NCBI RefSeq assembly: GCF_021049285.1
Contig: NZ_CP088017.1
Coordinates: forward strand, 1,933,380 to 1,997,379
Reading direction: 5' to 3'
Source of the DNA: Ruania halotolerans
Lineage (GTDB): Bacteria; Actinomycetota; Actinomycetes; Actinomycetales; Beutenbergiaceae
DNA length: 64,000 bases
The translations under genes were made by a program, and so were the position numbers. Positions within the stretch are counted from its first letter, which is position 1; each line of letters starts with the position of its first letter. The notes beneath the pieces are model-generated. The model did not search any database. It was not told the origin of the DNA and saw only the letters and a program-made list of their open reading frames with translations. Shown piece after piece: positions 46,427 to 64,000 of this stretch.

Positions 46427-47809
46427 TCAGCCGCCTGCGGTGATGTTGTCGTACGCGCGCATCGCCGCGGCCTGTGCATCGGCAAGAGCGTCCTCGGCAC
46501 TGGCCTCTCCGAGCAGCGTGGTGGTGATCGCGTTGTTCAGTTCGTTCTGGATGTCCTGGCCGGCTGGTGAGGCACCGTACGTCTGGCCATAGCCGAGAAC
46601 CTCGTAGTACGTGGAGATGACCTGATCGAGGCCCTCGTTGCCGGTCGGAACGACCCACTCCTCGCGAATGTTCGTATCCGCCTGCGGGGAGCCGGTGAAC
46701 AGTCCGGTGTTGATCCCGCCATCGGCCTCGCGCGTCTCACCGCGCGCCTGGCCAGCGGCCTCCCACCCTTCAAGAGACGTCAGGTTGAGCATCCACGCAC
46801 AGGCGGCGGTTGGGTTCTCAGCGCCGGCAGGCACCACGAAGGCGGTACCGGACGCGACGGAGAACGGCTCGCCATCCGGACCGCGGAACGGCACGGCCTG
46901 TAGCTCCAGGTCGTCGATGTAGGGCACCAGGACGTTCGGGTACCACTGGGCATTGACCTGCGCGCCGACCTGATTGGCGACGTACTGGTTGTTCTCGCCG
47001 AAAGTGTCGAAGGAGTCGGTGAAGCTCTTCACCTCGGCGAAACCGCCCTGAGCGTCGGTGATCTGCTGGAGCAACTCGAGTCCGGCAAGGTTCGAGGGGT
47101 CGTCGAGGGTCGGGACCCCGTCGGCGTCCGTGAGTTGACCGCCCATGCCGAGGATCCACAACTCGCCCTGCCCTGTCGCGACCGGGTCGAGGCCGAGTCG
47201 GCTTGGCACGCCACCATCCTCCTGGTACATGGCCTCGATGGCGTCGAGAAGCACGTCCGGCTGGGACGTGTCAATGTCCTCCGGGCTCACCCCGGCCTCA
47301 TTCAGCACCTCCATGTTCAGCAGGATCGCCGGTGGCTGGAAGAACTGCCCGACGCCCCAGATCTGCCCGTCCAGGCGCATATCGTCAATGACGAACGGGT
47401 AGTAGTCCTCTTCGGGGGCAACGTCGTGAGCCGCGTAGCACTCATCGAGTGGCATCAGCAGATCCTGTGCGGCATAGGTGGCCACGTACCGGCGATCCAT
47501 CTGCACCACATCGGGGACGTCGCCGCTCGCGAGGCGGGTGGTGAACTTCTGTGCGTCGAACCCGGTGGCGTCGAGCTCGATCTCCACGTCAGCAAGTTGC
47601 TCCTCGGCATAGTCGAGGCGCGATTGGCCGACGTCGTCGGCGTTGTTGAAACCCCAGGCGGACAGCGTGCCGGTGGGCTCGGCGCTCCAGTCCACCCCTT
47701 CGGCTCCACCGCCGCCACCGTCGCCATCGCCACCATCCCCGCCACCACAGGCGGAGAGGATCAGCGCGGCGGGGAGCGCGGCGAAGATCAGGCGCGTTCT
47801 CGTCGTCAT
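46427..47809 (-). CDS. Carbohydrate ABC transporter substrate-binding lipoprotein
   Basis: A 460-residue secreted binding protein. The signal peptide RTRLIFAALPAALILSAC ends in a lipobox (LSAC), followed by a Gly/Asp-rich linker (residues 25-40) and a CUT1-type solute-binding fold. ATG 47809 has AAGGGA 8 nt upstream; the longer frame to 47983 is rejected. It lies apart from its likely permeases (51960-53851), divergent from the first GH38 gene. A LacI-like site lies in the shared upstream region. The substrate is unknown, presumably an oligosaccharide that the GH38 enzymes open. Confidence 0.88.
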   Translation of the reverse strand: MTTRTRLIFAALPAALILSACGGGDGGDGDGGGGGAEGVDWSAEPTGTLSAWGFNNADDVGQSRLDYAEEQLADVEIELDATGFDAQKFTTRLASGDVPDVVQMDRRYVATYAAQDLLMPLDECYAAHDVAPEEDYYPFVIDDMRLDGQIWGVGQFFQPPAILLNMEVLNEAGVSPEDIDTSQPDVLLDAIEAMYQEDGGVPSRLGLDPVATGQGELWILGMGGQLTDADGVPTLDDPSNLAGLELLQQITDAQGGFAEVKSFTDSFDTFGENNQYVANQVGAQVNAQWYPNVLVPYIDDLELQAVPFRGPDGEPFSVASGTAFVVPAGAENPTAACAWMLNLTSLEGWEAAGQARGETREADGGINTGLFTGSPQADTNIREEWVVPTGNEGLDQVISTYYEVLGYGQTYGASPAGQDIQNELNNAITTTLLGEASAEDALADAQAAAMRAYDNITAGG

Positions 47810-48085
47810 CTCACAAGTCCCTTCATGTGACTGCCCGGCGACCGTGCCGGGAGGTTGGTACCCGCCACACCCTCGTCGGTGCAACGTATGGAATCCTTCC
47901 CACACGAACGGTAGAGGAAGGCGGTTCGCACCACAAGAGCAGTGATCAAGCCGTGACCTACTCCCGGGATGCTTCTGGGGCAAACGCGGGAAGAACGCGC
48001 CCGATCTGTCTTGCTCGACCGCCTACCGCAAGGCTAAGGTCTGTGTGGCAACGATGCCAGAAAATGAAAGGTCCCGGTCCTGCCG
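47810..48085. promoter_or_regulatory. Divergent regulatory region, binding protein and GH38 genes
   Basis: This 276-bp region holds a candidate GH38 promoter, TTGCTC (48011-48016), 18 bp, TAAGGT (48035-48040). A weaker LacI-like site lies at 47889-47904; read on the minus strand it matches the strong site at 13 of 16 positions but has CC rather than CG at its centre. TTGCAC on the minus strand (47880-47885) is a possible -35 for the binding-protein gene. Confidence 0.5.
48044..48059 (+). promoter_or_regulatory. LacI-family operator before the GH38 gene
   Basis: TGTGGCAACGATGCCA contains the palindrome TGGCA-ACGA-TGCCA with the central CG typical of LacI/GalR operators. It starts 3 bp after the TAAGGT -10 box, on the expected transcription start. 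The reverse strand of the site at 53921-53942 matches it at 15 of 16 positions. Confidence 0.75.
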
Positions 48086-50656
48086 ATGTCACATATTCGC
48101 CGTCTCTACCTGGTGGGACATACCCATCACGACGTGGGCTACACGCTCAGTCCTCGACTCGTGGATGGTCTTCACCGCGAGATCGTCTCGCGCGTACTTG
48201 ATCTGTGTGATGTCTACGACGGCAACGGTCCCGATGCGTTCCGATGGACCTTCGAAGTCGCTCGCCCGGTGCTCGGATTCCTCGCTGAGGCTCCGCAGGC
48301 AGACGTTGCTCGGCTCGCGGCACGCGTTCGCGAAGGCCGGATCAGCCTGACCGGTGGCTACCTGAACATGACCCAGTTGCCGAGCGAGACAGAGCTCGAT
48401 GGCGCCTACGACGCGCTGCAGCGGTTGCGCGCCGAGGGTTTGACGCTGCGGACCGAGCAGCACGGTGACATCAACGGGATCGCGTGGGGCACCGTGGAGC
48501 AGATGCGTCGTGCCGGCCTCGATCGCCTGGTGATGGCACTGAACCCGGACCACGGGCGCGCGCCGCTGACCCAGCCTTCGGGCTTCTGGTGGGAGGGTGT
48601 GAGCGGTCAGCGGATCTTTGTGTGGCTCTCCACCCACTACGGAATCGGCGAGGAGTGGGGCATCATCGACGGTGACGTGGAGCTGGCCCTGCACCGCATC
48701 GCCGAGTTCGTTGCAGAGCTCGAGGCGCGCGATGACTACCCCTACGATGCTGCCCTCGTGCACGCCGCCAATGACAACCGATGGCCGACGCCGCTGTTCC
48801 TGGAGGTCGTGCGCCGATGGAACGCCGCGCATCCGGACCGGCCGATGCGCACGTCCACCACGGATCAGGCCCTCGATGCGCTGCTCGCCTCAGTCGATGA
48901 TGACCGACTTCCGGTACTGCGCGGAGAATGGTCGGACTGGTGGGCTCACGGTCACGGATCCACCGCTCGTGAGGTGGCAACCTACCGGGAGGCGCGTTCG
49001 TTCGCCCGTGCCGCCGGGTCCCACCTTGCGCTGACGATGCTCCGGGGTGAGGGACCCGTGGCGCACGCCGATGTGATCGGCTACCGGCGTGCACCTGTGC
49101 GATCCCGCCCGGCGGACCGGATTGTGGTGGATCTCGACGCCGTGGACGAGCAGCTCCTGCTGTTCGGTGAACACACCTGGGGCTCCTGGGAGACCTACAG
49201 TAAGCCGTTCTCCACCTTCTCCTTCTCGCACTGGAACGCGAAGGCAGGGTTCGCCTACACCGCGTGGGACCATGGGCGCGACCTGGCCGTGGAAGGTCTT
49301 CATCGTTTCATCGCGAGCGGCACCGGCCCGGCTGTGCCGCGGGAGGTGACGGACGAGCCGCAGGTGGTCGTCGCCAACCCGACCGAGGTCGAGCGCACGG
49401 AGCCGGTGGAGGTGGAGGTCGACGGCGTCCGTCGGGTTCGCCTGGTCGCATCCGTTCCTGCGTTTGGGATCGCCGCTGTGCCGCTGCCGGAGGCCGGTGA
49501 GGTGCGCACCGAGCCGGAGCAGGTCGAGCTCTCGTTCGGGGCCTACCGGGTCACGGTCAGCCGGTCGGGTGGAGGTCTCATATCCCTGGTCGACGAGCGC
49601 ACCGGTCGCCAGCTCGTTGATGCCACCGTTCCTCATGCGCTGGGCGCTGTGGTGGTGGAATCGGTACGGCCGGGCAGCACCCACCCGATGCTCACCCGCA
49701 ACCCCAAGGACTTCCATCCCGACAACCCGGGTCCCGACTTCGACCGCCTGGCGGCGACCGGGAGCTCGGCGATCACCATCACCACCCGACCGGACGCCGT
49801 CACGCTGGAATGGGAGACCACACCGCCGGGACTGCCGCCGGCCCGCACCACGCTCATCCTCTATCGCGACACCCCAGCGATCGACTTCGCCGTCCATCTG
49901 GTCAAGCCGGAATCGTTCGGCCCGGAGAGCATCTTCGTGGCGTTCCCCTTCGCATTCGCCGATCCGCAGTACCTGCTCGAGACGGCGGGTGCGGTCTTCC
50001 GGCCCGACGTGGACCAACTGCCGGACACCTCGAAGGACTGGTACTCGATCCAGCAGGCGATCGGCGTGGGCGATGCCCAGTCGGGAGTGCTGTGGTCCAG
50101 CACGGATGCGCCGCTGGTCCAGCTCGGTGGCTTCCACACCGGCGCCTGGGCGCACACCCTGGAGGCGCGCACTGGCCACATCAACAGCTGGCTGATGAAC
50201 AATCTGCACTTCACCAACTTCCAGGCCCGGCAAGAGGGTACGCGCACGTACCGATACCGGTTCGTCCCCACGGCCGGGCCGCCCACGGCGGCTCAGGTAG
50301 CCCGCTACGGGCGCGATGGTGCCCTCCCGTTGCAGGCGCGGGCCACCCGCGTTGCGCTGCCGTGGCGCGGCGGGAGCGGACTGACCGTCACAGGAGAGGA
50401 GGTGCTCACCGAATTGCGGCCGGTCGCCGCTGATCAGGTGCGCCTGCGCTTGCGCGAGATCACTGGCCGCACCGCTCACGTTGAGGTGCGAGTGTCCGCG
50501 GGCGAGCACTGCCTCACTCGCCACGTGCAGGTGGCCGCGTACGGGCGGGCGGACGTCCTTCTGCCCGTCTCGGGTGTTCCTGGCGGCGAGCACCGATCAG
50601 AGATCGATACCATGCCAAGCGGCGGTGCACGCCATGAGGGGAGCGCAGTGAGATGA
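48086..50656 (+). CDS. Glycoside hydrolase family 38 N-terminal-type protein
   Basis: An 856-residue enzyme with the GH38 fold. GHTHHDVGYT (residues 11-20) corresponds to the zinc-binding HxHxD of alpha-mannosidases (His14, Asp16); GRISLTGGYLNMTQLPSETEL matches the next conserved block; Asp128 in GDINGIAW is the likely nucleophile position. The C-terminal half is the beta-sandwich seen in GH38. It has no signal peptide, so it acts on imported sugars. The branch differs from classical alpha-mannosidase, so the glycosidic bond cut is unknown. The Shine-Dalgarno is weak (GAAAGG, 14 nt). A LacI operator sits at its promoter and the LacI gene follows after 34 bp. Confidence 0.8.
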   Translation: MSHIRRLYLVGHTHHDVGYTLSPRLVDGLHREIVSRVLDLCDVYDGNGPDAFRWTFEVARPVLGFLAEAPQADVARLAARVREGRISLTGGYLNMTQLPSETELDGAYDALQRLRAEGLTLRTEQHGDINGIAWGTVEQMRRAGLDRLVMALNPDHGRAPLTQPSGFWWEGVSGQRIFVWLSTHYGIGEEWGIIDGDVELALHRIAEFVAELEARDDYPYDAALVHAANDNRWPTPLFLEVVRRWNAAHPDRPMRTSTTDQALDALLASVDDDRLPVLRGEWSDWWAHGHGSTAREVATYREARSFARAAGSHLALTMLRGEGPVAHADVIGYRRAPVRSRPADRIVVDLDAVDEQLLLFGEHTWGSWETYSKPFSTFSFSHWNAKAGFAYTAWDHGRDLAVEGLHRFIASGTGPAVPREVTDEPQVVVANPTEVERTEPVEVEVDGVRRVRLVASVPAFGIAAVPLPEAGEVRTEPEQVELSFGAYRVTVSRSGGGLISLVDERTGRQLVDATVPHALGAVVVESVRPGSTHPMLTRNPKDFHPDNPGPDFDRLAATGSSAITITTRPDAVTLEWETTPPGLPPARTTLILYRDTPAIDFAVHLVKPESFGPESIFVAFPFAFADPQYLLETAGAVFRPDVDQLPDTSKDWYSIQQAIGVGDAQSGVLWSSTDAPLVQLGGFHTGAWAHTLEARTGHINSWLMNNLHFTNFQARQEGTRTYRYRFVPTAGPPTAAQVARYGRDGALPLQARATRVALPWRGGSGLTVTGEEVLTELRPVAADQVRLRLREITGRTAHVEVRVSAGEHCLTRHVQVAAYGRADVLLPVSGVPGGEHRSEIDTMPSGGARHEGSAVR

Positions 50657-50690: not shown

Positions 50691-51710
50691 ATGAGCGCCC
50701 CGGCACGCCGGCCGACCATCCGCGATGTGGCCGAGACCGCGGGGGTCTCCCGTTCGACGGCGTCCCGCGCCCTGACCGGACATGGCTACGTTGCTCCGGC
50801 CGTGCGCGATCGCGTGCAGGCGGTCGCGCACGAGATCGGCTACGTCCCCGATATCACCGCACGGTTCCTGAAACAGCAGACGAGCCGGTCGATCGGCGTT
50901 CTGGTATGGGATATGCGCAACTCCTTCTACGGCGAACTCGCCTCCGGGATCAGCCAGGAGTCTCGCCAGCATGGCTACAGCATCATCCTCGCCGACGATC
51001 TGACCGGACCTGAGGCGAAGGTGGAGGTGGCCGAACGCTTCCTCGCCATGCGGGTGGCTGGTGTGATCATCACGCCCACCAGTCCCGAGGTGACCACCTA
51101 CCTCGCCGAGCGGAACGTTCCCGTGGTGGAGGTGGACCGGCAGTTCGCCGCAGGACGGGTCGATGCCGTGGTGGTGGATAACATGACCGCCTCGCGACGA
51201 GCCACGGAGAGCCTGCTGACACTCGGGCACGAGCGGATCGCCCTGGTGATCGACGAGATGGATTGGACCACCGGCCGGGATCGTCTAGCCGGATACCAGG
51301 CTGCCCTCCAGGCGGCGGGCCACGATCCAGACGCCGCCCTGGTGGTGAGTGCGGGGTGGGATGTGCCGAACGTCTATCGCGCCGCCCGCGAACTCCTCAG
51401 CCGAGACGATGCCCCGACGGCGGTCTTCGCTGCGAACAACGTGCTCGCCGAAGGCGTCTGGCGGGCAGCGACCGACCTCGGGATCTCCATCCCGGAGGAT
51501 CTCAGCCTCGTGGCATTCGACGACGCTCCGTGGATGACGCTGGTCTCGCCTCGGGTGACCGCCGTGGCCCAGGACTCGGTGGCGCTGGGCGAGATCGCGG
51601 TCCGGCAACTGCTCGAGCGAATTGAACGGCCCGACGTGCCGGCCCGCACGATCATGCTGGCCGCATTGCTCCGCGAGCGGGAGTCCACCGCGCCCCCGCG
51701 CCGGCGGTAG
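50691..51710 (+). CDS. LacI-family transcriptional regulator
   Basis: A 339-residue repressor. TIRDVAETAGVSRSTASRALTG is the LacI HTH with hinge ARFLKQQTSRSIGVLVWDM; the periplasmic-binding-like core contains VVVDNMTASRRATESLLTLGHERIALV and LVAFDDAPWMTLVSPRVTAV. It probably binds a sugar and controls the operators at 48044-48059 and 53921-53942. It lies 34 bp after the GH38 gene, perhaps on the same transcript, and converges on the permease operon. The effector is unknown. Confidence 0.93.
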   Translation: MSAPARRPTIRDVAETAGVSRSTASRALTGHGYVAPAVRDRVQAVAHEIGYVPDITARFLKQQTSRSIGVLVWDMRNSFYGELASGISQESRQHGYSIILADDLTGPEAKVEVAERFLAMRVAGVIITPTSPEVTTYLAERNVPVVEVDRQFAAGRVDAVVVDNMTASRRATESLLTLGHERIALVIDEMDWTTGRDRLAGYQAALQAAGHDPDAALVVSAGWDVPNVYRAARELLSRDDAPTAVFAANNVLAEGVWRAATDLGISIPEDLSLVAFDDAPWMTLVSPRVTAVAQDSVALGEIAVRQLLERIERPDVPARTIMLAALLRERESTAPPRRR

Positions 51711-51959: not shown

Positions 51960-52889
51960 TCAGCCCTTGCGGCCCGTGGTGGCCACTCCCTCGATGAAGT
52001 AGCGCTGCCCGAAGGCGAACAGGACCAACATCGGCAAGGTGACCATGAGGGAGGCCACCATCACGTACTGATAATCCCCTTGTCCGCCGGCCGTGGGGGA
52101 GTACTTCGTCATCGCGTAGGCGATGCCGAGCGGTGCGGTGAAGTCCTCGACGCCACCGGCGTTGAGATAGATCAGTGCCTGCTGGAGGTTGTTCCAGGAC
52201 GCCTGGAATTCGAACAGCAGCACGATGACCACCGAGGGAATGGACAGCGGCATCGCGATCTTGGTGAACAGTCCCCAGTAGCTGGCGCCATCGATGCGGG
52301 CGGCCTCGAACAGTTCCCGGGGCAGTCCCAGGAAGAACTGGCGCTGCAAGAAGATGTAGAACGCCGATCCGAAGAGGTTGTACGCCCACAATGGCGCCCA
52401 GGTACCGAGGAGGCCGATCTCTTTCCAGATCAGGTAGATCGGGATCATCGTGACCGCACCGGGGAGCATCATGGTCGCGAGCACGAGTCCGAAGAGAATC
52501 CTGCGTGCAGGGAACCGGAAATTGGCGAAGCCGAACGCCACGAGTGAGCTGGACAGCGCCACAGCCACCGACGCCAGGACGGCGATGCTGACGCTGTTGA
52601 ACAGCCAGCTGAAGAGCGGGAGCTCGTCCCAGACCGTGATGTAGTTGCGCCAGTTGAACGTCTCCGGTATCAGCGTGTTGTCGAAAACCTGTCCGCGGCC
52701 CTTGAGGCTGGCGGAGATCAGCCAGATGAGCGGGTACATGAACGCCGCAGTGAAGATCAGTAGCAACACCCAGGAGGTGCCTTTGCCGATCCTCGTGCTC
52801 AGGCGCGGCTTCTCCCGGATGATCTGGCGCTCGGGCTGAGGATCCTCGGGAGCGGCGGCGGTCTGCATCGCCGTGGTGTTCACGCTCAT
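51960..52889 (-). CDS. Sugar ABC transporter permease (MalG type)
   Basis: A 309-residue permease with about six membrane helices and the EAA loop RELFEAARIDGASYWGLFTK followed by IAMPLSIPS. An N-terminal tail of about 35 residues is Pro/Gln-rich. ATG 52889 overlaps the upstream permease stop by one base. It pairs with the MalF-type gene and probably with the distant binding protein at 46427-47809. No ATPase gene is present in the locus. Confidence 0.9.
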   Translation of the reverse strand: MSVNTTAMQTAAAPEDPQPERQIIREKPRLSTRIGKGTSWVLLLIFTAAFMYPLIWLISASLKGRGQVFDNTLIPETFNWRNYITVWDELPLFSWLFNSVSIAVLASVAVALSSSLVAFGFANFRFPARRILFGLVLATMMLPGAVTMIPIYLIWKEIGLLGTWAPLWAYNLFGSAFYIFLQRQFFLGLPRELFEAARIDGASYWGLFTKIAMPLSIPSVVIVLLFEFQASWNNLQQALIYLNAGGVEDFTAPLGIAYAMTKYSPTAGGQGDYQYVMVASLMVTLPMLVLFAFGQRYFIEGVATTGRKG

Positions 52890-53851
52890 CACTTGTCTCC
52901 CTCGTAATACACGAACCGATTGCCGAACTTCATCTGGATGAACGTGACGCACATGATGATCACGAACATGAGCCATGCCATCGCCGCCGCGAACCCGAAG
53001 TTGAATTGCCGGAACGCCTGCTGGAACAGGTACACGGCGTAGAACAAGGAGGATTCGGGTGAGGCGTTGGACTGGTCGCGCCAGAAGAGCAGATACGCCT
53101 GGTCGAATGTCTGGAAGGCGGCGATGGAGAGCACGATGACGTTGAAGAACATCGCACTGGAGATCATCGGCAGTGTGATCGTGGTGAACTTGCGCACGGC
53201 GCCGGCGCCGTCCAGCGAAGCCACCTCGTAGAGCTCTCTGGGAACGTTCTTCAGTGCCGCAAGGAAGATCACCATCGTGCCGCTGACGGCCCACAGCGAC
53301 ATCAGGACGATCGAGGGCTTGATCCAGTCCGGATCGACAAGCCATTGCGGACCGGAGATGCCGAAGAACCGGAGGAACTCGTTGATCGCGCCCGTATTGC
53401 CGTTCAGGAGGAGGAAGAAGATGGCGGCAGTGGCCACCATCGGCGTCATCTTCGGCAGGTAGTAGACCGTCCGGAAGAAACCCGCACCGCGCCCCAGCCG
53501 GTTCAACAGCGTGGCCAGGAACAGGGCAAAGGCGATCTCGAGCGGCACCGACAGCAGCGCGAAGAAGAGCGTGTTGCCCAGCGATGTGGCCACCCGAGGG
53601 TCGGAGAACAACGATTCGAAGTTGGCAAGCCCCACCGGTGATTGCACATTGGTGGCGAGGTTGTACCGGCTGAACGAGAGCACCAGGCTCCAGATCATGG
53701 CGCCCGCAGTGAAGATGCAGAAGCCGATGATCCAGGGCGAGATGAACAGGTACCCAGCGATCGCCTCACGTCGGTTGTACTTGCGAGGTTTGAGCGGTTT
53801 CGTCGGTGGCCCCTTCGCTGCGCGTGCGGCGTCCGCCGTGGTCTGAGTCAT
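52889..53851 (-). CDS. Sugar ABC transporter permease (MalF type)
   Basis: A 320-residue permease. A basic N-terminal tail is followed by the first helix (AIAGYLFISPWIIGFCIFTAG) and about five more; the EAA loop is RELYEVASLDGAGAVRKFTT then ITLPMISS. ATG 53851 has AGGAGG 5 nt upstream. It is the first gene of a two-gene operon driven by a strong promoter with a LacI operator. The partners are the MalG-type gene downstream and probably the binding protein 4 kb away. Confidence 0.9.
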   Translation of the reverse strand: MTQTTADAARAAKGPPTKPLKPRKYNRREAIAGYLFISPWIIGFCIFTAGAMIWSLVLSFSRYNLATNVQSPVGLANFESLFSDPRVATSLGNTLFFALLSVPLEIAFALFLATLLNRLGRGAGFFRTVYYLPKMTPMVATAAIFFLLLNGNTGAINEFLRFFGISGPQWLVDPDWIKPSIVLMSLWAVSGTMVIFLAALKNVPRELYEVASLDGAGAVRKFTTITLPMISSAMFFNVIVLSIAAFQTFDQAYLLFWRDQSNASPESSLFYAVYLFQQAFRQFNFGFAAAMAWLMFVIIMCVTFIQMKFGNRFVYYEGDK

Positions 53852-53920: not shown

Positions 53921-53977
53921 GATGTGGCATCGTTACCACATCGCGGCGACTATATCCCCGTTCCCTATCCCGTGCAA
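53921..53977 (-). promoter_or_regulatory. Promoter and LacI operator of the permease operon
   Basis: On the minus strand TTGCAC (53972-53977) and TATAGT (53949-53954) are spaced by exactly 17 bp. Immediately after the -10 box, the palindrome with arms GATGTGG and CCACATC (53921-53942) and core CATCGTTA covers the transcription start. Its minus-strand form contains TGTGGTAACGATGCCA, nearly identical to the GH38 operator. Confidence 0.8.
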
Positions 53978-54838: not shown

Positions 54839-54875
54839 TTGACCGATCTGTTCACACGCGAACACTATGGGGCGG
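54839..54875 (+). promoter_or_regulatory. Aldolase promoter with embedded DeoR-type operator
   Basis: TTGACC (54839-54844) and CACTAT (54863-54868) at 18 bp fit a promoter whose start falls on the GTG at 54875. TGTTC (54849-54853) and GAACA (54860-54864) form a perfect inverted repeat with a 6-bp centre, between the two promoter boxes. A repressor there would block RNA polymerase. Confidence 0.6.
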
Positions 54876-55756: not shown

Positions 55757-56589
55757 GCGACGCGGCTGCCGGGACGATGCGTATCGGGTTCGTGCACACC
55801 GCACCCGCGCTCACGCCCACCTTCGAGGACCTGCTCGCCGAGTACTCCTGGTCCCACGCTTCTGACGGTGCTGCCCGTGCTGATGGAGTTGAGGCTGCCG
55901 ACCGTGCCGACCGTGCCGACAGTGCCGACAGTGCCGACCGTGCCGACGCTGGTGACACCGCCGAGACCGCAGGCTCCGTATCGCACGGGCCGGCCGAGGC
56001 TCTGCATGTGGTGGACGCTTGGTTGCTGCGCACCGCCTTGGCCACCGGCGTAGACGCCCGCGTGCACGAACGAGTTCGCGCGCACGTGCGGCATCTGGCC
56101 GCGCTCGGCGCCGATGCCGTGCTGATCACCTGCTCCTCGATCGGGGAGACGGTTTCCTCGGCCGCAGATGAGGTCTCCATTCCGGTGCTGCGGGTAGACG
56201 CGGCGATGGCCGAGCAGGCACGCGACCTGGCCTCCGCCGGGGTGTACCACCGCATCGCGGCGCTGGCCACATTCACGTCAACTCTTGGCCCGACTCAGCG
56301 TCTCCTTGAGGCCGTGGCCGGTGCGGGTATCGAGGTCACCGCCGACGTGGTCGCCGGAGCCGCAGACGCCAAGGCCGCCGGTGACGCCGCCGGGCATGAC
56401 GCTGCCATCCTCGCTGCCGCTCAGCGAGTGGCTACGCGAGCGGACGTGATCGTGATCGCCCAGGCGTCGATGGCTGCCGCCGTGGCGGGGGCCGACCTGA
56501 CGGTGCCCGCGCTCACCTCTCCACGTGGTGGTGTGCAGGCCGTGCTCGCTGCAGCACGCCGAGTGCACCCCACGCTGATTCACTCCTAG
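55753..56589 (+). CDS. Asp/Glu racemase-superfamily protein
   Basis: A 278-residue protein of the aspartate/glutamate/hydantoin racemase fold. MRIGFVHTAPALTPTFEDLLAEYS opens the first domain, and one conserved cysteine is present in VLITCSSIGETV. In the second half, where racemases have their other cysteine, the sequence is VIVIAQASMAAAV with no Cys, so a two-base racemase is unlikely; a one-base isomerase or decarboxylase is possible. Residues about 49-66 are an in-frame ADR/ADS repeat. GTG 55753 overlaps the aldolase stop; ATG 55777 is an alternative. It probably acts in the same pathway, function unknown. Confidence 0.75.
   Translation: MSDAAAGTMRIGFVHTAPALTPTFEDLLAEYSWSHASDGAARADGVEAADRADRADSADSADRADAGDTAETAGSVSHGPAEALHVVDAWLLRTALATGVDARVHERVRAHVRHLAALGADAVLITCSSIGETVSSAADEVSIPVLRVDAAMAEQARDLASAGVYHRIAALATFTSTLGPTQRLLEAVAGAGIEVTADVVAGAADAKAAGDAAGHDAAILAAAQRVATRADVIVIAQASMAAAVAGADLTVPALTSPRGGVQAVLAAARRVHPTLIHS
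55897..55950 (+). repeat. In-frame 9-bp coding minisatellite
   Basis: Six tandem copies of a 9-bp unit (GCCGACCGT with AGT and GCT variants) encode ADR-ADR-ADS-ADS-ADR-ADA inside the racemase-fold gene, between the first strand and the rest of the domain. Copy-number change would keep the frame. Confidence 0.9.
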
Positions 56590-56603: not shown

Positions 56604-59600
56604 ATGCACCGCACCATCACTGACATCGGAGCACGCCTCGATCGTGCCCTGGCTGAGCGAATCGCTCCCGCTGTGCACTCCCACCGCGCTCCGGTCACCG
56701 TTGAAGCGAATGTGCTGCCTGGCGAACCGGTCTCCTTCGCCGAGGCTGTCGCCGGCCCGTTCGCCCCGTTCGAGGTGGGCACACCCTGGGGGCGGCCGTG
56801 GGGGACCACGTGGTTCCGGATCACGGGGGTGGTGAACGCGATAGTGAGCGCCCATGCGCACGAGCAGCGGATCGAGTTGCTCGTGGATCTAGGCTTCGGG
56901 TCCGGCGGGCCAGGGTTTCGCTCCGAGGCGCTGGCCTACACCGCAGATGGCACCATCCTCAAAGCTGTCGAACCCCGCACGGCGTACGTGCCGGTGGGTG
57001 GTCAGCACGGCGCACCGATCACGGCAGACGGTGCCTTCGAGATCTATCTCGAGGCCGCGTCCAATCCCCGGTTCGACGGCACGATCTCCGCATGGGGTGA
57101 CCTCACCACGGCGGGGGAGGAATTGCTCTACCGGCTCGAGCGTGCCGAGCTCGCGCTGCGCGAACCCGAGGTGCACCAGTTGCTCGTGGAGGCGCGCCTG
57201 CTGCACGAGATCGCTGCGACCACCCCGGAGACCGACCCGCGCCACCACGAGCTGCGCGGGGCCCTGGATCGGATGGTCGATGAACTGGACGCCAGCGGAT
57301 TCGACCGTGTGGTCGAGTCCGCGCCGGCCGCACGCGCCCAACTGTCCGGTGTGCTCGCCGATCGCGCGCGCACGAGCGCCCATACGATCAGCGCTGTCGG
57401 ACATGCCCACATCGACTCCGCGTGGCTGTGGCCCGTGCGTGAGACGATCCGGAAGTGCTCACGCACGTTCTCCAATGTGGTCGCCCTGGCGCGGGAATAC
57501 CCCGAGTTCATCTTCGCCTGCTCGTCGGCCCAGCAGTATGCCTGGATGCGCGATCATCACCCCCAGGTGTGGGAACAGATCCGTGCGGCCGTGGACGCCG
57601 GTCAGTTCGTCCCGGTCGGCGGTATGTGGGTGGAGTCGGACACGAACCTGCCCGGCGGAGAGTCCTTGGTCCGGCAGTTCACTGCCGGGAAGCGATTCTT
57701 CGCCGAGCACTTCGGCACTGAGGCGCGGGAGGTATGGCTGCCGGACTCCTTCGGATACTCCGGCGCCCTGCCGCAGCTGGCCCGGCTGGCCGGCTTCGAC
57801 TGGTTCCTCTCCCAGAAGATGTCCTGGAACTCCACAAATGCGTTCCCGCACCACACGTTCTGGTGGGAGGGAATCGACGGCACCCGCGTGTTCACCCATT
57901 TCCCGCCGTCGGAGACCTACTCCTCGGAGTTCAACGGCAAGGAACTCGCGCGATCGACCACCAGCTTCCGGGAGAACGGGCTCGCCACCCGCTCCCTGAT
58001 GCCCTTCGGGTACGGCGACGGCGGAGGGGGTCCCACCAGGGAGATGCTGGAGACCGCGCGCCTGCTCGCTGACCTGGACGGTGCGCCACGGGTGCAGATC
58101 GAGACCCCGGAGGCGTTCTTCACCGCCGCCCACGCCGAGTACGGCGAGCGTGCACCCGTGTGGTCGGGGGAGATGTACCTGGAGTTCCACCGCGGCACCT
58201 ACACCAGCCAGCGGGCCATGAAGGAAGGTAACCGCCGCACCGAGCACCTGCTGCACGAGGCCGAGCTGTGGTCGGCCACCGCGGCGGTGCGCCGTGGCGC
58301 CCCCTACCCGGCGGAGGAGCTGCAGCGGATCTGGGAGGAGGTGCTACTGCTGCAGTTCCACGACATCCTTCCCGGCTCCTCGATCGCCTGGGTGCACCGG
58401 GAGGCCCGCGAACGGTACACCGCGCTCACCGCCCGCCTCGAGTCCCTCATCGAGACGGCGCTCGACGTGCTCGGCGGCCCCGGTGAGGTCCCGCTCGCGT
58501 TCAATGCCACCCCGCATCCCTGCGACGGCGTGCCGGCCCACGGCGCAGCCCCTCGCCGGCGGGACACCACCGCCGTCGAGATAGTGGAAGCCGACGGCGA
58601 GGTGTACCTGGACAACGCCCTGCTGCGGGTCCGGATCGGCACGGACGGCACGCTGGCCTCGGTGTGGGACCACCGGGCCGGCCGCGAGGTGCTCGCCGGC
58701 CCCGGCAACGCCCTCTGGGTGCACCCCGACACCCCCAACCGGTTCGACGCCTGGGACCTGGACGAGTTCTACCGGCACTCCGGCCACCCGCTCACCACGG
58801 TGGATCACCTCGAGCTGGACACCTCCGATCCGGCGCGCCCCGTGGTACGCATCACCCGCTCCGACGGCGAATCGACCTACGTGCAACACCTCGCCCTGGC
58901 TGCCGGGTCGATGGCGATCGAATGTGCCGCCGAGGTGGACTGGCACGAGCGTGAGCGCATCCTCAAGGTCGCCTTCCCGCTGGCCGTCCATGCACGGGAG
59001 TCCACCGCCGAGACGCAGTTCGGGTACGTGCAGCGGCCGACACACACGAACACCTCCTGGGATGCCGCCAAGTTCGAGATTCCGGCGCACAAGTGGCTGC
59101 ATGTGGGCGAGCCCGGTTACGGCATTGCGGTGACGAACGAGACCACCTACGGCCATGAGGCCACCCGCCCGGGTCCCGGCGACGCCCACGGTGCCGGCGC
59201 CACCACGGTGCGCCTCTCACTGCTCCGAGCACCGCGCTACCCCGACCCGCAGACCGATCAGGGTCACCACATCCTGCGCTACCAGCTCGTCTGCGGAGCC
59301 GATGTCCCCGAGGCAATCGAGGCCGGCTACCGCACCGCGCGGCCACTGCGGGAACGCTGCGGTGGTGCCCCGGTTGAACCGGTGGTGAGGATGAGTGAGG
59401 GCACCGACAACAGCCCGTCCCACGGCGTGCTGCTCGAGACGGTCAAACTGGCCGACGACGGCTCGGGCGACCTGGTGCTGCGGTTGTACGAATCCCGCGG
59501 CGGCCGCGGCCGGGCCGAGTTGCACGTGTGCGAAGGTGTGCAGATGCGCGGGGCGGCGGTGACCGACCTGCTCGAACGATCGGACGAGGCCATTGCCGCT

Positions 59601-59723
59601 CTCGCGCCGCTGCACCGCGACGGCAACCGCCTCACCGTGGACATGGCGCCGTTCCAGGTGGTCACCGTCCGCATCACTCGAGCGGCACCGATGACCTCAG
59701 CACAGAAGGACGAGTGGTCATGA
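56604..59723 (+). CDS. Alpha-mannosidase, glycoside hydrolase family 38
   Basis: A 1039-residue enzyme of the full GH38 plan. An N-terminal beta domain (residues 1-255) precedes the catalytic domain: AVGHAHIDSAWLWPVRET gives zinc ligands His269 and Asp271, SSAQQYAWM and VGGMWVESDTNLPGGESLVRQ follow, and VWLPDSFGYSGALPQL contains the nucleophile Asp381. The helical bundle and C-terminal beta domains complete it (RAELHVCEG, then VVTVRITRA near the end). It has no signal peptide and removes alpha-mannosyl units from imported material. ATG 56604 has GGAAGGG about 4 nt upstream. It is much closer to classical alpha-mannosidase than the GH38-type protein at 48086. The stop overlaps the next gene. 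Confidence 0.93.
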   Translation: MHRTITDIGARLDRALAERIAPAVHSHRAPVTVEANVLPGEPVSFAEAVAGPFAPFEVGTPWGRPWGTTWFRITGVVNAIVSAHAHEQRIELLVDLGFGSGGPGFRSEALAYTADGTILKAVEPRTAYVPVGGQHGAPITADGAFEIYLEAASNPRFDGTISAWGDLTTAGEELLYRLERAELALREPEVHQLLVEARLLHEIAATTPETDPRHHELRGALDRMVDELDASGFDRVVESAPAARAQLSGVLADRARTSAHTISAVGHAHIDSAWLWPVRETIRKCSRTFSNVVALAREYPEFIFACSSAQQYAWMRDHHPQVWEQIRAAVDAGQFVPVGGMWVESDTNLPGGESLVRQFTAGKRFFAEHFGTEAREVWLPDSFGYSGALPQLARLAGFDWFLSQKMSWNSTNAFPHHTFWWEGIDGTRVFTHFPPSETYSSEFNGKELARSTTSFRENGLATRSLMPFGYGDGGGGPTREMLETARLLADLDGAPRVQIETPEAFFTAAHAEYGERAPVWSGEMYLEFHRGTYTSQRAMKEGNRRTEHLLHEAELWSATAAVRRGAPYPAEELQRIWEEVLLLQFHDILPGSSIAWVHREARERYTALTARLESLIETALDVLGGPGEVPLAFNATPHPCDGVPAHGAAPRRRDTTAVEIVEADGEVYLDNALLRVRIGTDGTLASVWDHRAGREVLAGPGNALWVHPDTPNRFDAWDLDEFYRHSGHPLTTVDHLELDTSDPARPVVRITRSDGESTYVQHLALAAGSMAIECAAEVDWHERERILKVAFPLAVHARESTAETQFGYVQRPTHTNTSWDAAKFEIPAHKWLHVGEPGYGIAVTNETTYGHEATRPGPGDAHGAGATTVRLSLLRAPRYPDPQTDQGHHILRYQLVCGADVPEAIEAGYRTARPLRERCGGAPVEPVVRMSEGTDNSPSHGVLLETVKLADDGSGDLVLRLYESRGGRGRAELHVCEGVQMRGAAVTDLLERSDEAIAALAPLHRDGNRLTVDMAPFQVVTVRITRAAPMTSAQKDEWS

Positions 59724-61687
59724 GGGTCGAGACCCGCGACGGTGTGATCACCGTCCACGCGGATGCCTACCGCCTTGAGGTGCACCCGGTGGGTGTGACA
59801 CCGCCGCGAGCGCTGGTGTTCGCTCCGGACGGCGCGGAGGTGGCGCAGCTCTCGCTGTTCGCCTCCTTGGACCGCGTGGGCGCGGCGGACGAGAGCTACC
59901 AGGTGCACCCGCCCCGGGTCCGCAGTGCTGACCGGGCCTGCGCAGACACGAGGAGGACAGACGCCGCTGCGACTGACACGGTTGTGACTGACACGGTTGC
60001 GACTGACACGATCGCGACTGACACGATCGCGACTGACACCGTGGAGACTCACGCAGGTGAGACCGATACCGTGGAGATCGAGGTACGCCGGTCCTCAACC
60101 GCCTGGGAGGCCGCCGCGGTGGTGCTCAGGGCCGGTCCTGATGGCGTCCGCGTGCATGCGGAGGTGACCGGCACCGGCACGCTCACGACCGTTCGGGTGC
60201 TCGGCGGGTCGGCGGTACTGCCCAGCGGTGCGTGTGGCGACTTCTTCTCGCGCGCCACGGGGGCGACGATGTTCACCCCGAACCCGACCGAACCGGTGCA
60301 GTGGGAACGCCCTGCCTCGTCGGCATCGGTGCTGGGAATCCTGGGCGATGCCCACCCTGGCCGGTTGCACGCAGTGTTCTCCCCGCCGCCGTTGGCCGTC
60401 GCGATCGGGCAAGGCAGCCGTTGGCTCACGGCCTGGGTACGCGCCGGGATCGAGGAGTGCACGTTCACCGAATGGCGCTACGAACCGCTCGACTCCGGCT
60501 TCCGATTCGCCTTCGACTACGACGCGCACACCGATGTGAATAGCACCTTCCGCACTCCCGAGATCGCGCTGCGGCTCGCTGCCGATCCGTGGGAGTGTGT
60601 GAGCGGCTCACAGCGCGATCTCGTGCAGTCCGGGCTCGTTCCGCAGGTACCGCATGGAGCCTCGCGAGGGGGAGCGCCGCGATGGTGGAGTGAGCCGCTG
60701 TTCTGTGGCTGGGGCGCGCAGTGTGCCCGAGCGCGCTGGGGCCGCGCCGGCGATGAGCCCGAGAACGGGCGCGCCGGCAGTAGCGCCACCGGCCGTGCGG
60801 CCGATCACGCCCGTCAGGACGTCTACGACGAGTTCCTTGCCACCCTCGCCGCTCAGGGCATCGACCCGGGCACCGTGGTGATCGACGACAAATGGCAGGC
60901 CGAGTACGGAACGGCCGTGGTGGATACCGAGAAGTGGCCAGACCTGCGAGGCTGGATTGCGCAGCGGCATGCCGCCGGGCAGCGGGTGCTGCTCTGGTGG
61001 AAGGCCTGGGACCCCGAAGGGCTACCGGCCAGTGAGTGCATTCTCGATCCGGCCGGGCGTCCGGTGGCCGCCGACCCGGGGAACCCGGAGTATCGCGAAC
61101 GGCTGCGCCGCGTGGTCGCCCACCTGCTCAAGCCGGCCGAGGCCGGTGGACTCGGCGCGGACGGATTCAAGGTGGACTTCACCCAGCGAGCCCCGGCCGG
61201 GCACCACCTGCGGGGCACCCCCGGAGTCCCGTGGGGTATCGCCGGGCTGCACGCGCTGCTGACTGAGCTGTACGCGGCCACCAAGGCCGTCCGGCCCGAT
61301 GCTCTCGTGGTCACACACACCCCGAACCCGCTCTTCGCGGACGTCACTGACATGGTGCGGCTCAACGATGTGCTGGAGCACGACCCTGCCGGGAGGTTCG
61401 TGCCGGTGGCTGATCAGGTGCGCACCCGCGCCCGGATCGCCGCCGCAGCTGTGCCGGGCATCCCGCTGGACACCGACCAGTGGCCGATGCCGGACCGGGA
61501 CCAATGGCGCGGCTACACCCAGGCCCAGTCGGCACTCGGGGTGCCGGCCCTCTACTACGCCGAACGCATTGATGGCAGCGGCGAGCTACTCACCGATGAC
61601 GACTATGCACTGGTGCGGCGCACCTGGGCGGAGTACCGACGCCGTCGGGAGAGCGCCGCCACAGCATCCGCGCAGGAGCGACGATGA
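59720..61687 (+). CDS. TIM-barrel glycoside hydrolase (GH31/GH36-like)
   Basis: A 655-residue protein with an N-terminal beta domain and a C-terminal (beta/alpha)8 barrel. VVIDDKWQAEYG, RVLLWWKAWDPEG, GADGFKVDFTQ and VTHTPNPLFADVTDMVRLNDV match the barrel strands of the GH31/clan GH-D alpha-glycosidases; Asp of KVDF is the likely nucleophile. It has no signal peptide. The exact family is uncertain. A 15-bp repeat encodes a Thr/Asp-rich linker in the N-terminal domain (about residues 85-119). ATG 59720 overlaps the GH38 stop (ATGA), and its stop overlaps the oxidoreductase ATG. Confidence 0.75.
   Translation: MRVETRDGVITVHADAYRLEVHPVGVTPPRALVFAPDGAEVAQLSLFASLDRVGAADESYQVHPPRVRSADRACADTRRTDAAATDTVVTDTVATDTIATDTIATDTVETHAGETDTVEIEVRRSSTAWEAAAVVLRAGPDGVRVHAEVTGTGTLTTVRVLGGSAVLPSGACGDFFSRATGATMFTPNPTEPVQWERPASSASVLGILGDAHPGRLHAVFSPPPLAVAIGQGSRWLTAWVRAGIEECTFTEWRYEPLDSGFRFAFDYDAHTDVNSTFRTPEIALRLAADPWECVSGSQRDLVQSGLVPQVPHGASRGGAPRWWSEPLFCGWGAQCARARWGRAGDEPENGRAGSSATGRAADHARQDVYDEFLATLAAQGIDPGTVVIDDKWQAEYGTAVVDTEKWPDLRGWIAQRHAAGQRVLLWWKAWDPEGLPASECILDPAGRPVAADPGNPEYRERLRRVVAHLLKPAEAGGLGADGFKVDFTQRAPAGHHLRGTPGVPWGIAGLHALLTELYAATKAVRPDALVVTHTPNPLFADVTDMVRLNDVLEHDPAGRFVPVADQVRTRARIAAAAVPGIPLDTDQWPMPDRDQWRGYTQAQSALGVPALYYAERIDGSGELLTDDDYALVRRTWAEYRRRRESAATASAQERR
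59971..60075 (+). repeat. In-frame 15-bp coding minisatellite
   Basis: Seven units of 15 bp, five nearly identical (GACTGACACGGTTGT and variants) and two degenerate, encode TDTVV/TDTVA/TDTIA pentapeptides in the glycosidase. The unit length is a multiple of three, so expansion or loss keeps the frame. Confidence 0.88.
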
Positions 61688-63261
61688 CTGATGTGCTCGT
61701 CTTCGGCGCCACCTCGGCCGGCGTGTGCGCCGCTGTGGCGGCCGCCCGCGCAGGCGCCCGGGTGGTGCTCGCCGAACCCGGCCAGCACGTGGGTGGAATG
61801 ACCACGGGTGGTCTCGGCTACACCGACGTCGGGGACGTTCGCGCTCTGGGCGGCCCGGCCGCTCGGTTCCGCCAGGCGATCGCCGACCATTACGACGTAC
61901 CCGTGGGCCACTTCGCCGGCCCGGAACCCCACGTGGCCGAGCAGATCTTCACCCAGTGGCTCGAGCAGGTGGGAGTGGAGGTGCGGTTCGGGCGCCGCCT
62001 CGCCGCAGTCACCACGACCGGTGGCGCCATCACCGAGGTCACCTTCGACCTCGCGAGCACCCACCTGGTCACCCACCTGGGCACCCGCGCGGCGCAGGGG
62101 AGTGAACAGGTGCGCCCCGCCGTCGTGATCGATGCCTCCTACGAAGGGGACCTGCTCGCCGCCGCTGGGGTGAGTTACGCCGTCGGGCGGGATGCGGTGA
62201 GTACCTACGGGGAGGCCCACGCCGGCCGGCAGGAGCTGCTTCCGGGCAGGCACACGATGCCGGCGTGGATCTCACCGTTCGCCGAGGACCTCACGGGCCG
62301 CATCGAGGGTGCGCTGCTGCCGCAGATCAAGGCCGAGCCGATGGTCGGGGTGGGCGAGTCTGACGGCGGCGTGATGGCGTACGGGTACCGGGTGTGCCTG
62401 TCCACCGCGGCCGATCGGGTCCCGTTCACGCCGAGTCCGGGTTATGACGAGGCGCATTGGGAGTTGTACCGCCGGGTGCTGGCGCACTGGGAAGCACACG
62501 GCGGCACGCCCCCGGCCGGGAAACTGCTCGGCCTGGAACCGAACCTGCCCGGCGGGATGGCCGACGGCAACTCACTCGGGCCCATCTCCCTGAACGTCCT
62601 CGACGGCTCTGCCTGGGAATACCCGGATGCCACTGCGCAGCGCCGCGAGGAGATCCGCACGCACCATCTGCAGCACACCAGCGACTTCCTGTACTTCCTG
62701 AGCAACGCCGCGAGCGTTCCCGCGCAGGTGCGCACCGAGTTGCAGCGCTGGGGCCTGCCCGCAGGGGAGTTCACCGACACCGACCACCTGCCGCACCAGC
62801 TGTATGTGCGCGAGGCGCGGCGGATGCTCGGCGAGTACGTGCTCACCGCTCATGATCTGCTGCAGGCGAGGCCGGTCGAGGACGTGATCGCACTGGGCTC
62901 CTACCACCTGGACGTCCGCGAGGTGCAGCGCACCTGGCGCTGGGCCTACGAGCATCCCGACCCGGTGGCGATGACGGTCACCGAGGGGTACCTCTCGGTC
63001 GGCGTTCCCGTCTACCCGATCCCGTACCGGAGCCTGGTACCGCGGCGGAGTGAGTGCACGAACCTGATCGCCGCGGTGTGCCTCTCGGCCTCGCATCTGG
63101 CATTCAGTTCGGTGCGGATGGAGCCGCAATACCAGATGCTGGGGGAGGCCGCCGGGCTCGCCGCCGCGGCCGCGGCGCGGGATGCTGTGGCGGTGCAGGA
63201 TGTGGCCGTGCCCGCACTGCAGGAGCAGTTGCGCGCGGCCGGGGCCGTGCTCGCCCGCTGA
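61684..63261 (+). CDS. FAD-dependent oxidoreductase (PF12831-type)
   Basis: A 525-residue flavoprotein. VLVFGATSAGVCAAVAAARAGARVVL is the FAD Rossmann motif, and EPGQHVGGMTTGGLGYTDVG the second FAD contact typical of the FAD_oxidored family often found in polysaccharide loci and misnamed xanthan lyase. ASYEGDLLAAAGVSYAVGRD and SHLAFSSVRMEPQYQMLGEAAGLAAA are further family blocks. It has no signal peptide. ATG 61684 overlaps the glycosidase stop. It probably oxidises a sugar or glycoside hydroxyl; the substrate is unknown. Confidence 0.85.
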   Translation: MTDVLVFGATSAGVCAAVAAARAGARVVLAEPGQHVGGMTTGGLGYTDVGDVRALGGPAARFRQAIADHYDVPVGHFAGPEPHVAEQIFTQWLEQVGVEVRFGRRLAAVTTTGGAITEVTFDLASTHLVTHLGTRAAQGSEQVRPAVVIDASYEGDLLAAAGVSYAVGRDAVSTYGEAHAGRQELLPGRHTMPAWISPFAEDLTGRIEGALLPQIKAEPMVGVGESDGGVMAYGYRVCLSTAADRVPFTPSPGYDEAHWELYRRVLAHWEAHGGTPPAGKLLGLEPNLPGGMADGNSLGPISLNVLDGSAWEYPDATAQRREEIRTHHLQHTSDFLYFLSNAASVPAQVRTELQRWGLPAGEFTDTDHLPHQLYVREARRMLGEYVLTAHDLLQARPVEDVIALGSYHLDVREVQRTWRWAYEHPDPVAMTVTEGYLSVGVPVYPIPYRSLVPRRSECTNLIAAVCLSASHLAFSSVRMEPQYQMLGEAAGLAAAAAARDAVAVQDVAVPALQEQLRAAGAVLAR

Positions 63262-63286
63262 GATCCGTTGGAGTAAGGAGCCACTG

Positions 63287-64000
63287 ATGGCCGACGACGT
63301 CCCTTCCGTTGATGCACGCGAGGTCACCGAGGTCCTTCCCGGCGTGTTCCGGGTGCGCGACACCTGCCACGTCTACGTGATCTGTGCCCCGAGTAGCGGC
63401 GGGCGGCGGACTGGCATTGCGATCGACTTCGGCTCCGGCCGGGTGCTGGATCTGCTGGAGGAGATGGGTCTGGATGCGATCACCGATGTGCTGATGACTC
63501 ACCACCACCGGGACCAGGCGCAGGGACTGCCCCGGGCCGCCGCTGCAGGGATCGCGGTGCACGTGCCGCCGGTGGAGGCCGAGTTGTTCTCCGCCGTGGA
63601 TCAGATGTGGGCCGCGCGCGAGGTGGGCAACAACTACAACCTGCGCACCGACAGGTTCTCCCTGCTGGAGCCTGTGCCGATTTCCTCGACGGTGCCGGAA
63701 TACCGCGCCGCCACCTACGGCGGAGTGCAGGTGCGAGTCCTGCCCACCCCCGGGCACACCCCCGGATCGGTGACGTATCTGATTCAGAAGGGCCGCCGTC
63801 TGGCGTTCACCGGTGACCTGATCTATGCCCCGGGCAAGGTGTGGTCCTTGGCGGCCACGCAGTGGTCCTACACCGAGAATGAGGGCCCGACGATGGCGGT
63901 GCTCTCCTGCGACCTCCTCGCGGCCGAGGAGCCGGATGTGCTGCTGCCCTCACACGGTGAGGTGATGGATCCGGGTGTCGCGGCGCTGAAGCTGACTGGG
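63287..64000 (+). CDS. MBL-fold metallo-hydrolase, 3' end outside the window
   Basis: The first 238 residues of a metallo-beta-lactamase-fold protein; no stop occurs before base 64000. LMTHHHRDQAQG is the metal motif with Gln in place of the last His of HxHxDH; PTPGHTPGSVTYL, FTGDLIYAPGKVW and LLPSHGEVM carry the remaining metal ligands. ATG 63287 has AAGGAG 7 nt upstream. It follows the FAD oxidoreductase by 25 bp and is likely the next gene of the operon. A lactonase or thioesterase role is possible; not established. Confidence 0.85.
   Translation, partial: MADDVPSVDAREVTEVLPGVFRVRDTCHVYVICAPSSGGRRTGIAIDFGSGRVLDLLEEMGLDAITDVLMTHHHRDQAQGLPRAAAAGIAVHVPPVEAELFSAVDQMWAAREVGNNYNLRTDRFSLLEPVPISSTVPEYRAATYGGVQVRVLPTPGHTPGSVTYLIQKGRRLAFTGDLIYAPGKVWSLAATQWSYTENEGPTMAVLSCDLLAAEEPDVLLPSHGEVMDPGVAALKLTG

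Follow-up and report, generated by a model that had tools for sequence, protein, structure and literature searches.

A conserved gene island of Ruania halotolerans with LacI- and DeoR-type regulators and a candidate route for the intracellular degradation of a mannose-containing glycan

Gene loci for the utilisation of α-mannosides, in which glycoside hydrolases of family GH38 are combined with a CUT1 importer, are of a known kind. A related gene set is present in a stretch of 64,000 nt of the Ruania halotolerans genome (GCF_021049285.1, NZ_CP088017.1, one contig of 4,270,413 bases), which is referred to as the window in the following, and the island formed by these genes continues for 5.8 kb beyond the window end. 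It agrees with the α-mannoside loci in its GH38 proteins, its CUT1 importer and its LacI-family regulator and, in relatives, in a ROK kinase and a SIS isomerase. It differs from them in the recurring presence of a TIM-barrel glycosidase resembling clan GH-D (TIMb), a protein with tandem metallo-β-lactamase (MBL) folds (MBL2), a PF12831 oxidoreductase dependent on flavin adenine dinucleotide (FAD) and a module of a class I aldolase (Ald) and a racemase-fold protein (Race). Altogether, the island looks like a widely conserved, jointly controlled kit, with which a mannose-rich glycan is imported and dismantled inside the cell.

The aldolase module recalls two further described systems. With the sulfoglycolytic Embden-Meyerhof-Parnas (sulfo-EMP) pathway of the E. 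coli yih genes and of Arthrobacter AK01 and AK04, the steps of which are given in an excerpt of PMC9594981, the island shares a YihT-family class I aldolase with a conserved lysine, and the ABC transporter genes of the Arthrobacter-type locus (excerpt of PMC8873060) resemble the importer genes of the island. It is set apart by aldolases that form a group of their own, by the absence of PfkB, YihS, sulfolactaldehyde (SLA) dehydrogenase and exporter genes from the island, and by GH38, TIMb, MBL2 and the FAD enzyme, none of which is mentioned as a sulfo-EMP component in the excerpts of PMC8873060 and PMC9594981. With the L-threonate pathway (LtnD-OtnI-OtnK-OtnC), whose four steps are expected to end at dihydroxyacetone phosphate (DHAP) according to an excerpt of PMC12540250, R. 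halotolerans has in common an OtnK scoring above the curated cut-off and an Aldolase_II-type neighbour resembling OtnC; the difference is that here Ald and Race accompany OtnK, with glycan import and glycosidases attached. LtnD and OtnI were not recognised in the island or among the neighbours recurring in at least two loci, judged by eye and without a profile search. No publication on the island gene set was found in open-access full text, which mostly leaves out subscription journals, as judged by title and start of the abstract. The initial annotation of the window had described a gene set that fits no known pathway; this holds for the last steps, which match none that we found.

A scan of genome_contigs yielded 114 confirmed relatives of TIMb, and the best 80 loci, picked by TIMb, were analysed with flanks of up to 10 kb. 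Neighbour families, each named from one representative, were counted from tblastn matches (E ≤ 1e-8, at least 55 bits; 45 bits for synteny of Ald and Race), and the counts are lower bounds because of cuts at contig ends. MBL2 was present in 70 of the 80 loci, LacI in 62, the ROK kinase in 53, a GmhA-like SIS isomerase in 44 and GH38b in 43, followed by the FAD enzyme (39), the permeases (39 and 38), GH84 (38), the solute-binding protein SBP (33), the (α/α)6 protein GH127L, Ald and Race (30 each), GH1 (28), GH2 and DeoR (20 each), an FGGY kinase and a sucrose-phosphorylase-like GH13 (18 each), OtnK (13), GH38a (7) and GH38d (6). MBL2 was followed by LacI in 54 cases, ROK by SIS in 43, SIS by GH38b in 37, TIMb by MBL2 in 35 and TIMb by the FAD gene in 30. 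Ald and Race were neighbours in all 29 loci containing both, with Ald occurring alone in one locus, which is cut, and Race alone in two.

Since the 80 loci had been selected by one gene, four of the genes were searched in 159 sampled genomes of the order. TIMb and MBL2 were detected in seven genomes each, six of them shared, and the FAD gene in four, all of which are TIMb genomes. Eight of 17 YihT-like aldolases were at least 59% identical to Ald and are regarded as island type; this type was present in 7/7 TIMb genomes (in G126 as an incomplete match where the contig ends) and was restricted to genomes carrying TIMb or MBL2 (8/159). Fisher tests, in which kinship is ignored, gave 2.4e-9 for TIMb and MBL2, 1.8e-11 for both TIMb and Ald and MBL2 and Ald, and 1.4e-6 for TIMb and FAD. 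In the neighbourhood comparison suggested by the initial annotation, the genes co-occur far above chance in the 159 genomes, which is the opposite of rare co-occurrence. The same island is found in G031, the sister genome. More than 12 gene families are syntenic and apparently co-regulated; they recur in Microbacterium, in Cellulomonas and as far as Nonomuraea, and part of the set extends to Chloroflexota. In L091, a locus from a metagenome-assembled genome of Thermoflexus, which we take to belong to the Chloroflexota, TIMb, Race and FGGY are followed by an aldolase of the class II fructose-bisphosphate type; L094 is seemingly of the same lineage. In L091 the class of the aldolase has changed but the kinase has been retained, which speaks for a unit of kinase and aldolase.

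Two palindromes occur in the island. The LacI-type operator is found as a perfect match at 53923..53940 upstream of the permease genes, with one mismatch at 48044..48061 in the divergent promoter region of SBP and GH38d, and, differing from the search pattern by one or two mismatches, at L008:2064 upstream of GH38b. The scan of the window returned four matches, which are two sites on both strands, compared to a mean of 0.27 in shuffled sequences. With a widened motif, 100 sites (≤2 mismatches) were found in 61 of the 80 loci, while 60 permuted palindromes gave a mean of 0.2 and a maximum of 3, a control that does not cover the general likeness among LacI operators. By loci, sites lie within 350 bp upstream of ROK (41), SBP (23), PermF (9), TIMb (7), GH2 (4) and FAD (3), and more rarely of Ald, GH38b and GH38a (2 each) and of GH1 and SIS (1 each); LacI-type sites are located upstream of Ald in L023 and at the Ald start in L050. 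Genome-wide, ten places matched at ≤2 mismatches (one for the reversed control pattern), and only four at ≤1 mismatch; of these, three belong to the island and the fourth, at 3743108-3743125, ends 47 bp upstream of the start codon of OtnK.

The second palindrome, TGTTCACACGCGAACA (54849..54864; an exact match to TGTTC-N6-GAACA), lies in the 85-bp gap of the divergent promoter of DeoR and Ald and is probably the DeoR site. Of 23 corresponding regions, 18 contain it with ≤1 mismatch, nine of them exactly, whereas permuted half-sites gave a mean of 0.16 and a maximum of 1. Palindromes matching both regulators had been reported in the initial annotation, and one fitting each was located, with binding being presumed. 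The shared operators would speak against separate induction of the genes, and they predict a single regulon to which a gene pair at a distance of about 1.75 Mb belongs, by which OtnK and OtnC are named as a possible exit to DHAP.

This distant gene was also the best OtnK homologue in an independent search, and it scores 413.9 with NF043035, the model of 3-oxo-tetronate kinase (curated cut-off 350). Its end is overlapped by an OtnC-like gene of the Aldolase_II type, whose best family is 3-oxo-tetronate-4-phosphate decarboxylase (NF043034). In relatives, OtnK stands beside DeoR in 11 loci and is followed by OtnC in seven, one of these without DeoR; the OtnK genes of Cellulomonas denverensis, C. 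pakistanensis and Cellulosimicrobium are about 12-15 kb away from TIMb, on contigs of equal length. OtnK is present in 6/8 island genomes and in 11/151 others. Of the 15 loci in which both Ald and Race are present and the upstream DNA exceeds 2 kb, 12 encode an FGGY kinase, with 14 adjacencies of FGGY to Ald counted, and in seven loci DeoR is directly beside Ald without an FGGY gene. The remark that no sugar kinase is visible was corrected by OtnK in trans behind the same operator and by FGGY and ROK kinases in the loci of relatives. Known FGGY products include ketose 1-phosphates, such as those of rhamnulose and fuculose (excerpt of PMC3245297). FGGY and YihT-like aldolase are a recurring pair: in G049, a LacI-FGGY-aldolase trio (L118:8656-12211) with a distant YihT-like aldolase (33%) lies outside of an island.

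Ald (54875..55756, plus strand; PF01791, 74.6 bits) matches the sulfofructose-1-phosphate (SF-1-P) aldolase 7ag7 with a phmmer E-value of 3e-56, SF-1-P aldolases being its closest solved structures by sequence, and is 39% identical to E. coli YihT. In E. coli YihT numbering, it shares Lys193, Lys124, Arg28 and Arg253, residues to which we ascribe catalytic roles in YihT. Only two alignment columns carry fixed differences between 11 island Ald and five YihT-like sequences. In a tree of 18 aldolases, the island proteins form their own group with a support of 93/96, which is below the strong-support mark of the tool, and the aldolase of G024, 42% identical to Ald, groups with E. coli YihT (99/98).

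Race (55753..56589, plus strand) belongs to PF01177 (38.1 bits; cut-off 31); the family match was confirmed, and the L091 homologue scores 69.7. As the initial annotation had noticed, it is short of one cysteine: in 11 orthologues Cys127, in a TC-S-x-x-G motif, is the sole invariant cysteine, and the likewise invariant LAQASM stretch, presumably the place of the second catalytic cysteine in Asp/Glu racemases, contains none, which makes a two-cysteine racemase mechanism unlikely. PF01177 enzymes act at a carbon adjoining a carboxylate; this chemistry would fit a sugar-acid fragment and hence OtnK. In 15 loci (among them L029, L041, L046, L064 and L072) a sucrose-phosphorylase-like GH13 gene directly follows Race, which suggests that the substrates of relatives include a glucosyl-ketose; the GH13 copy of L077, located after OtnK/OtnC, scores 354.1 with the NCBIfam model sucrose_gtfA (cut-off 334.4).

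The FAD-dependent oxidoreductase (61684..63261, plus strand; PF12831, 315.9 bits) is followed by MBL2 (63287..65146, plus strand, corresponding to L008:166-2025, with the window ending at 64000), a protein of 619 aa with PF00753 matches in two stretches. Among 40 MBL2 sequences of 600-680 aa, HHHRD (72-76), H338, H340, D341, D342 and H343 are invariant and Q77 is retained in 39. Searches of PDB sequences with MBL2 (E 1e-5), the FAD enzyme (E 0.001) and Race gave zero matches at the thresholds used.

TIMb (59720..61687, plus strand) had no match above cut-off among Pfam and NCBIfam models, the best Pfam model being GH31 (E 0.012, 15.4 bits versus 23.5 required). In an alignment of 32 sequences, the motifs DDxW, ADGFKVDF and RLND are invariant or almost so, and the aspartates of the latter two, which by analogy with clan GH-D we take to be catalytic, are invariant. 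The AlphaFold2 model has a mean predicted local distance difference test (pLDDT) score of 86.7, and Foldseek placed FpGalNase (9ayu, E 1.3e-16) first, followed by GH36 and GH31 structures. TIMb thus resembles these clan GH-D enzymes in fold and conserved aspartates, the two features by which the clan is recognised, and is unlike them in sequence, with 8-16% identity among the 50 matches listed. Judging from the model, it is probably a retaining α-glycosidase of a group outside the family models tried. TIMb and Race are both lengthened by tandem repeats, with unit lengths of 9 bp and 15 bp and longer multiples, at 55895-55964 in Race (Ala/Asp-rich) and at 59938-60049 in TIMb (Thr/Asp-rich, about residues 68-111, pLDDT <50); no other row of either alignment has an insertion of that length at the repeat positions.

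Based on their parts, genomic linkage and shared operators, as revealed by the tools used, these genes probably constitute a conserved, LacI/DeoR-controlled intracellular catabolic system. We lean slightly towards a single pathway that ends in Ald, Race and OtnK/OtnC. In this pathway, a small α-mannosidic glycan would enter through the CUT1 importer and be trimmed by the GH38 proteins and TIMb, with the freed mannose passing to glycolysis, in relatives probably via the ROK kinase and the GmhA-like isomerase. The FAD enzyme and MBL2 may turn the remainder into a sugar acid or keto-sugar, the carbon chain of which would be cut by Ald. Race, with Cys127 as base, might then act as tautomerase or epimerase and bring the fragment set free into the 3-oxo-tetronate form for phosphorylation by OtnK and decarboxylation of the product to DHAP by OtnC. 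In the FGGY-bearing relatives, the ketose kinase probably provides the C1 phosphate ahead of cleavage. The exact chemistry proposed for the steps of the FAD enzyme, MBL2, Ald and Race is doubtful. The earlier proposal of one pathway for an imported mannose-containing glycoside is supported by linkage and shared operators, mannose being probable, and its full interpretation in part. Three or more enzyme groups to which no chemistry has been assigned are brought together here, namely the clan GH-D-like TIMb, the tandem-MBL protein and the one-cysteine racemase-fold protein.

Several results weigh against this interpretation. The FAD gene was found in just 39/80 loci, with the flanks being limited, and GH38d in 6/80. 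OtnC scores 186.4 and remains below the curated cut-off of 250. As 2-OtnC decarboxylases share the class II aldolase domain (excerpt of PMC12540250), the L091 enzyme might be a decarboxylase rather than an aldolase. In the sister genome G031, OtnK is just 42% identical and no operator was present within the 4.2 kb read. Twelve OtnK loci, from 11 of the 14 genomes searched, had no operator upstream; nine of them were without any site at ≤4 mismatches and three had a site 0.7-1.4 kb past the OtnK 3' end. The prediction that the operator precedes OtnK in other island genomes as well thus failed in all 12 loci, so that the OtnK link is based on one operator in the R. halotolerans genome plus gene neighbourhood in other genomes. 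The R. halotolerans genome contains no close FGGY relative (best match 34%, no operator), which leaves the source of a C1 phosphate unaccounted for; the 34% match was dismissed as the missing kinase, as its gene setting looks unrelated by eye and the operator is absent. The best match to the ROK kinase of related loci in this genome is 37%, and hence not a close relative. As to regulation, the operator motif was widened after inspection of the same loci in which the sites were counted, and binding of the LacI and DeoR proteins to their respective palindromes is deduced from synteny. The DeoR palindrome did not lead to another kinase: of seven exact places in the genome, five are within predicted reading frames, one precedes a binding-protein-like gene elsewhere and one is that of the island.

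A version of the single pathway in which the carbon chain is cut before any phosphorylation is quite improbable. There, the FAD enzyme would oxidise C3, the MBL protein would open a lactone and Ald would split a 3-keto-hexonate between C4 and C5 to glycolaldehyde and 3-oxo-tetronate; Race would epimerise or isomerise the C4 keto-acid, resolving the manno configuration at C2, and OtnK/OtnC would yield DHAP and CO2, a sequence of steps to which we give equally little credence. 3-Oxo-tetronate is a close electronic analogue of DHAP, with an anionic arm, a ketone and a CH2OH group, and the loci devoid of FGGY fit such a sequence, whereas the FGGY-bearing ones are harder to account for. If true, it would be a new sugar-degrading pathway with an aldolase acting without a sugar phosphate and a new glycosidase family attached. 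It is also rather unlikely that the island holds two separate modules for different substrates, one under LacI for α-mannosides (importer, GH38 proteins, TIMb, MBL2) and one under DeoR for a ketose or sugar acid (Ald and Race, joined in relatives by FGGY and OtnK/OtnC). The two regulators with their two distinct palindromes would be explained in this way, as would the relatives in which DeoR-OtnK and FGGY-Ald-Race form a divergent block and the occurrence of FGGY with a YihT-like aldolase in G049 (L118) without an island. Such a division is opposed by the confinement of the island-type aldolase to genomes with TIMb or MBL2, by the single tight run of Ald, Race, GH38a, TIMb, FAD and MBL2 in the window, and by the LacI-type sites found by Ald in L023 and L050 and before OtnK of R. 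halotolerans itself.

Two further explanations concern the substrate. A locus for eukaryotic-type N-glycans or fungal mannoprotein glycans, to which the aldolase part would be a side branch, is less likely than not, and compatible with the single pathway. GH38 would take the α-mannose, GH2 and GH84 of relatives the core mannose and N-acetylglucosamine, and the ROK kinase and GmhA-like isomerase would lead to glycolysis, an assignment put forward with the same reserve. It draws on the frequency of GH84, GH2, GH1, ROK and SIS genes (38, 20, 28, 53 and 44 of 80 loci) and on the ROK-SIS (43) and SIS-GH38b (37) adjacencies; the GH84, GH2, ROK and SIS representatives, however, have no match in the island of R. 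halotolerans (L007/L008), Ald, Race, OtnK/OtnC, the FAD enzyme and the GH-D-like enzyme are left unexplained, and the specificities of the glycoside hydrolases are known at family level only. That the island serves a sulfosugar glycoside by a sulfo-EMP variant in which Ald would be the SF-1-P aldolase is very improbable. The solved structures closest to Ald by sequence and the four retained YihT residues favour it, but the island genes, to which this search was confined, include no YihS-type isomerase, PfkB kinase, SLA dehydrogenase or reductase, or TauE exporter, and the aldolase of the sulfo-EMP-like locus in G024 groups apart from the island Ald. Sulfoquinovose was rejected as the likeliest substrate on account of the partner genes absent from the island and the separate aldolase group. 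The G024 locus (L114:8005-16571), which belongs to a genome of the same order and is likely sulfo-EMP, encodes PfkB, a YihT-like aldolase, TauE and a YihS-like GlcNAc_2-epim protein, a set matching the Arthrobacter-type locus in the excerpt of PMC8873060, and G017 (L113:7896-9771), also of this order, has a PfkB kinase and a YihT-like aldolase and is likewise probably sulfo-EMP.

All genes listed in the initial annotation (binding protein, permeases, two GH38 proteins, TIM-barrel enzyme, aldolase, racemase-fold protein, FAD and MBL enzymes, LacI and DeoR) are present with the families correctly named; gene starts were picked by inspection and then located on the sequence. From Ald to MBL2, neighbouring genes overlap or are spaced by at most 25 bp, which is compatible with one operon. 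The importer is represented by SBP, a CUT1 solute-binding lipoprotein (46427..47809, minus strand; PF01547, 50.2 bits), and two permeases with PF00528 domains, one of the MalG/UgpE type (51960..52889, minus strand) and one of the MalF/UgpA type (52889..53851, minus strand), for which UgpE and MalG, and UgpA and MalF, respectively, were the top models, each below its cut-off. An ATPase subunit was not found among the island genes, to which the search was limited. The regulators are encoded at 50691..51710 (LacI family, plus strand; PF00356/PF13377) and 54028..54789 (DeoR family, minus strand; PF00455, 119.1 bits; PF08220, 52 bits).

Three of the six places in the R. halotolerans genome that carry GH38 are in the island. 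GH38a (1039 aa; 56604..59723, plus strand) is a full-length protein of the α-mannosidase type with PF01074 (324.6 bits), PF09261 (109), PF07748 (177.2) and PF17677 (38.7), and GH38b (883 aa; L008:2136-4787, past the window end) has a full GH38 domain set, so that N-terminal catalytic, middle and C-terminal domains are matched in both. The divergent GH38d (856 aa; 48086..50656, plus strand) has the N domain only (PF01074, 36.6 bits; cut-off 25) and carries HTHHD and HGDING, presumably the catalytic motifs. Some 80 kb before the window lies a second GH38 cluster (L134; G000:C1:1842001-1861000), where a sulfatase-like frame and genes for a ROK-type regulator, a binding protein and two permeases were noted by eye beside GH38. 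GH127L (627 aa; L008:4784-6667, window 67905-69788) has a weak GH127 match as its only Pfam trace. Its model (pLDDT 77.9) matched PL33, GH88/105, GH76, epimerases and others in Foldseek, which points to an (α/α)6 barrel as fold class only.

Upstream, housekeeping genes (42036-46301) stop just before the island, with GTPase Der/EngA domains in the 44058-46301 frame preceded by frames named by eye as cytidylate kinase, acyltransferase and prephenate-dehydrogenase-like. On the far side, a PIG-L deacetylase is encoded on the opposite strand (L008:7314-8045, window 70435-71166). It was rejected as an island partner in the manner of the F. plautii deacetylase/galactosaminidase pair, with 0/80 loci at E 1e-8, though the sister genome G031 has it at 79%. 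Occasional extras of the clusters are a ceramidase-like protein slightly below the Pfam cut-off (three loci; L085:6668-7984), a sulfatase (three loci, two at <30% identity; L064:14403-15956) and an APH-type kinase (four loci; L039:7289-8167).

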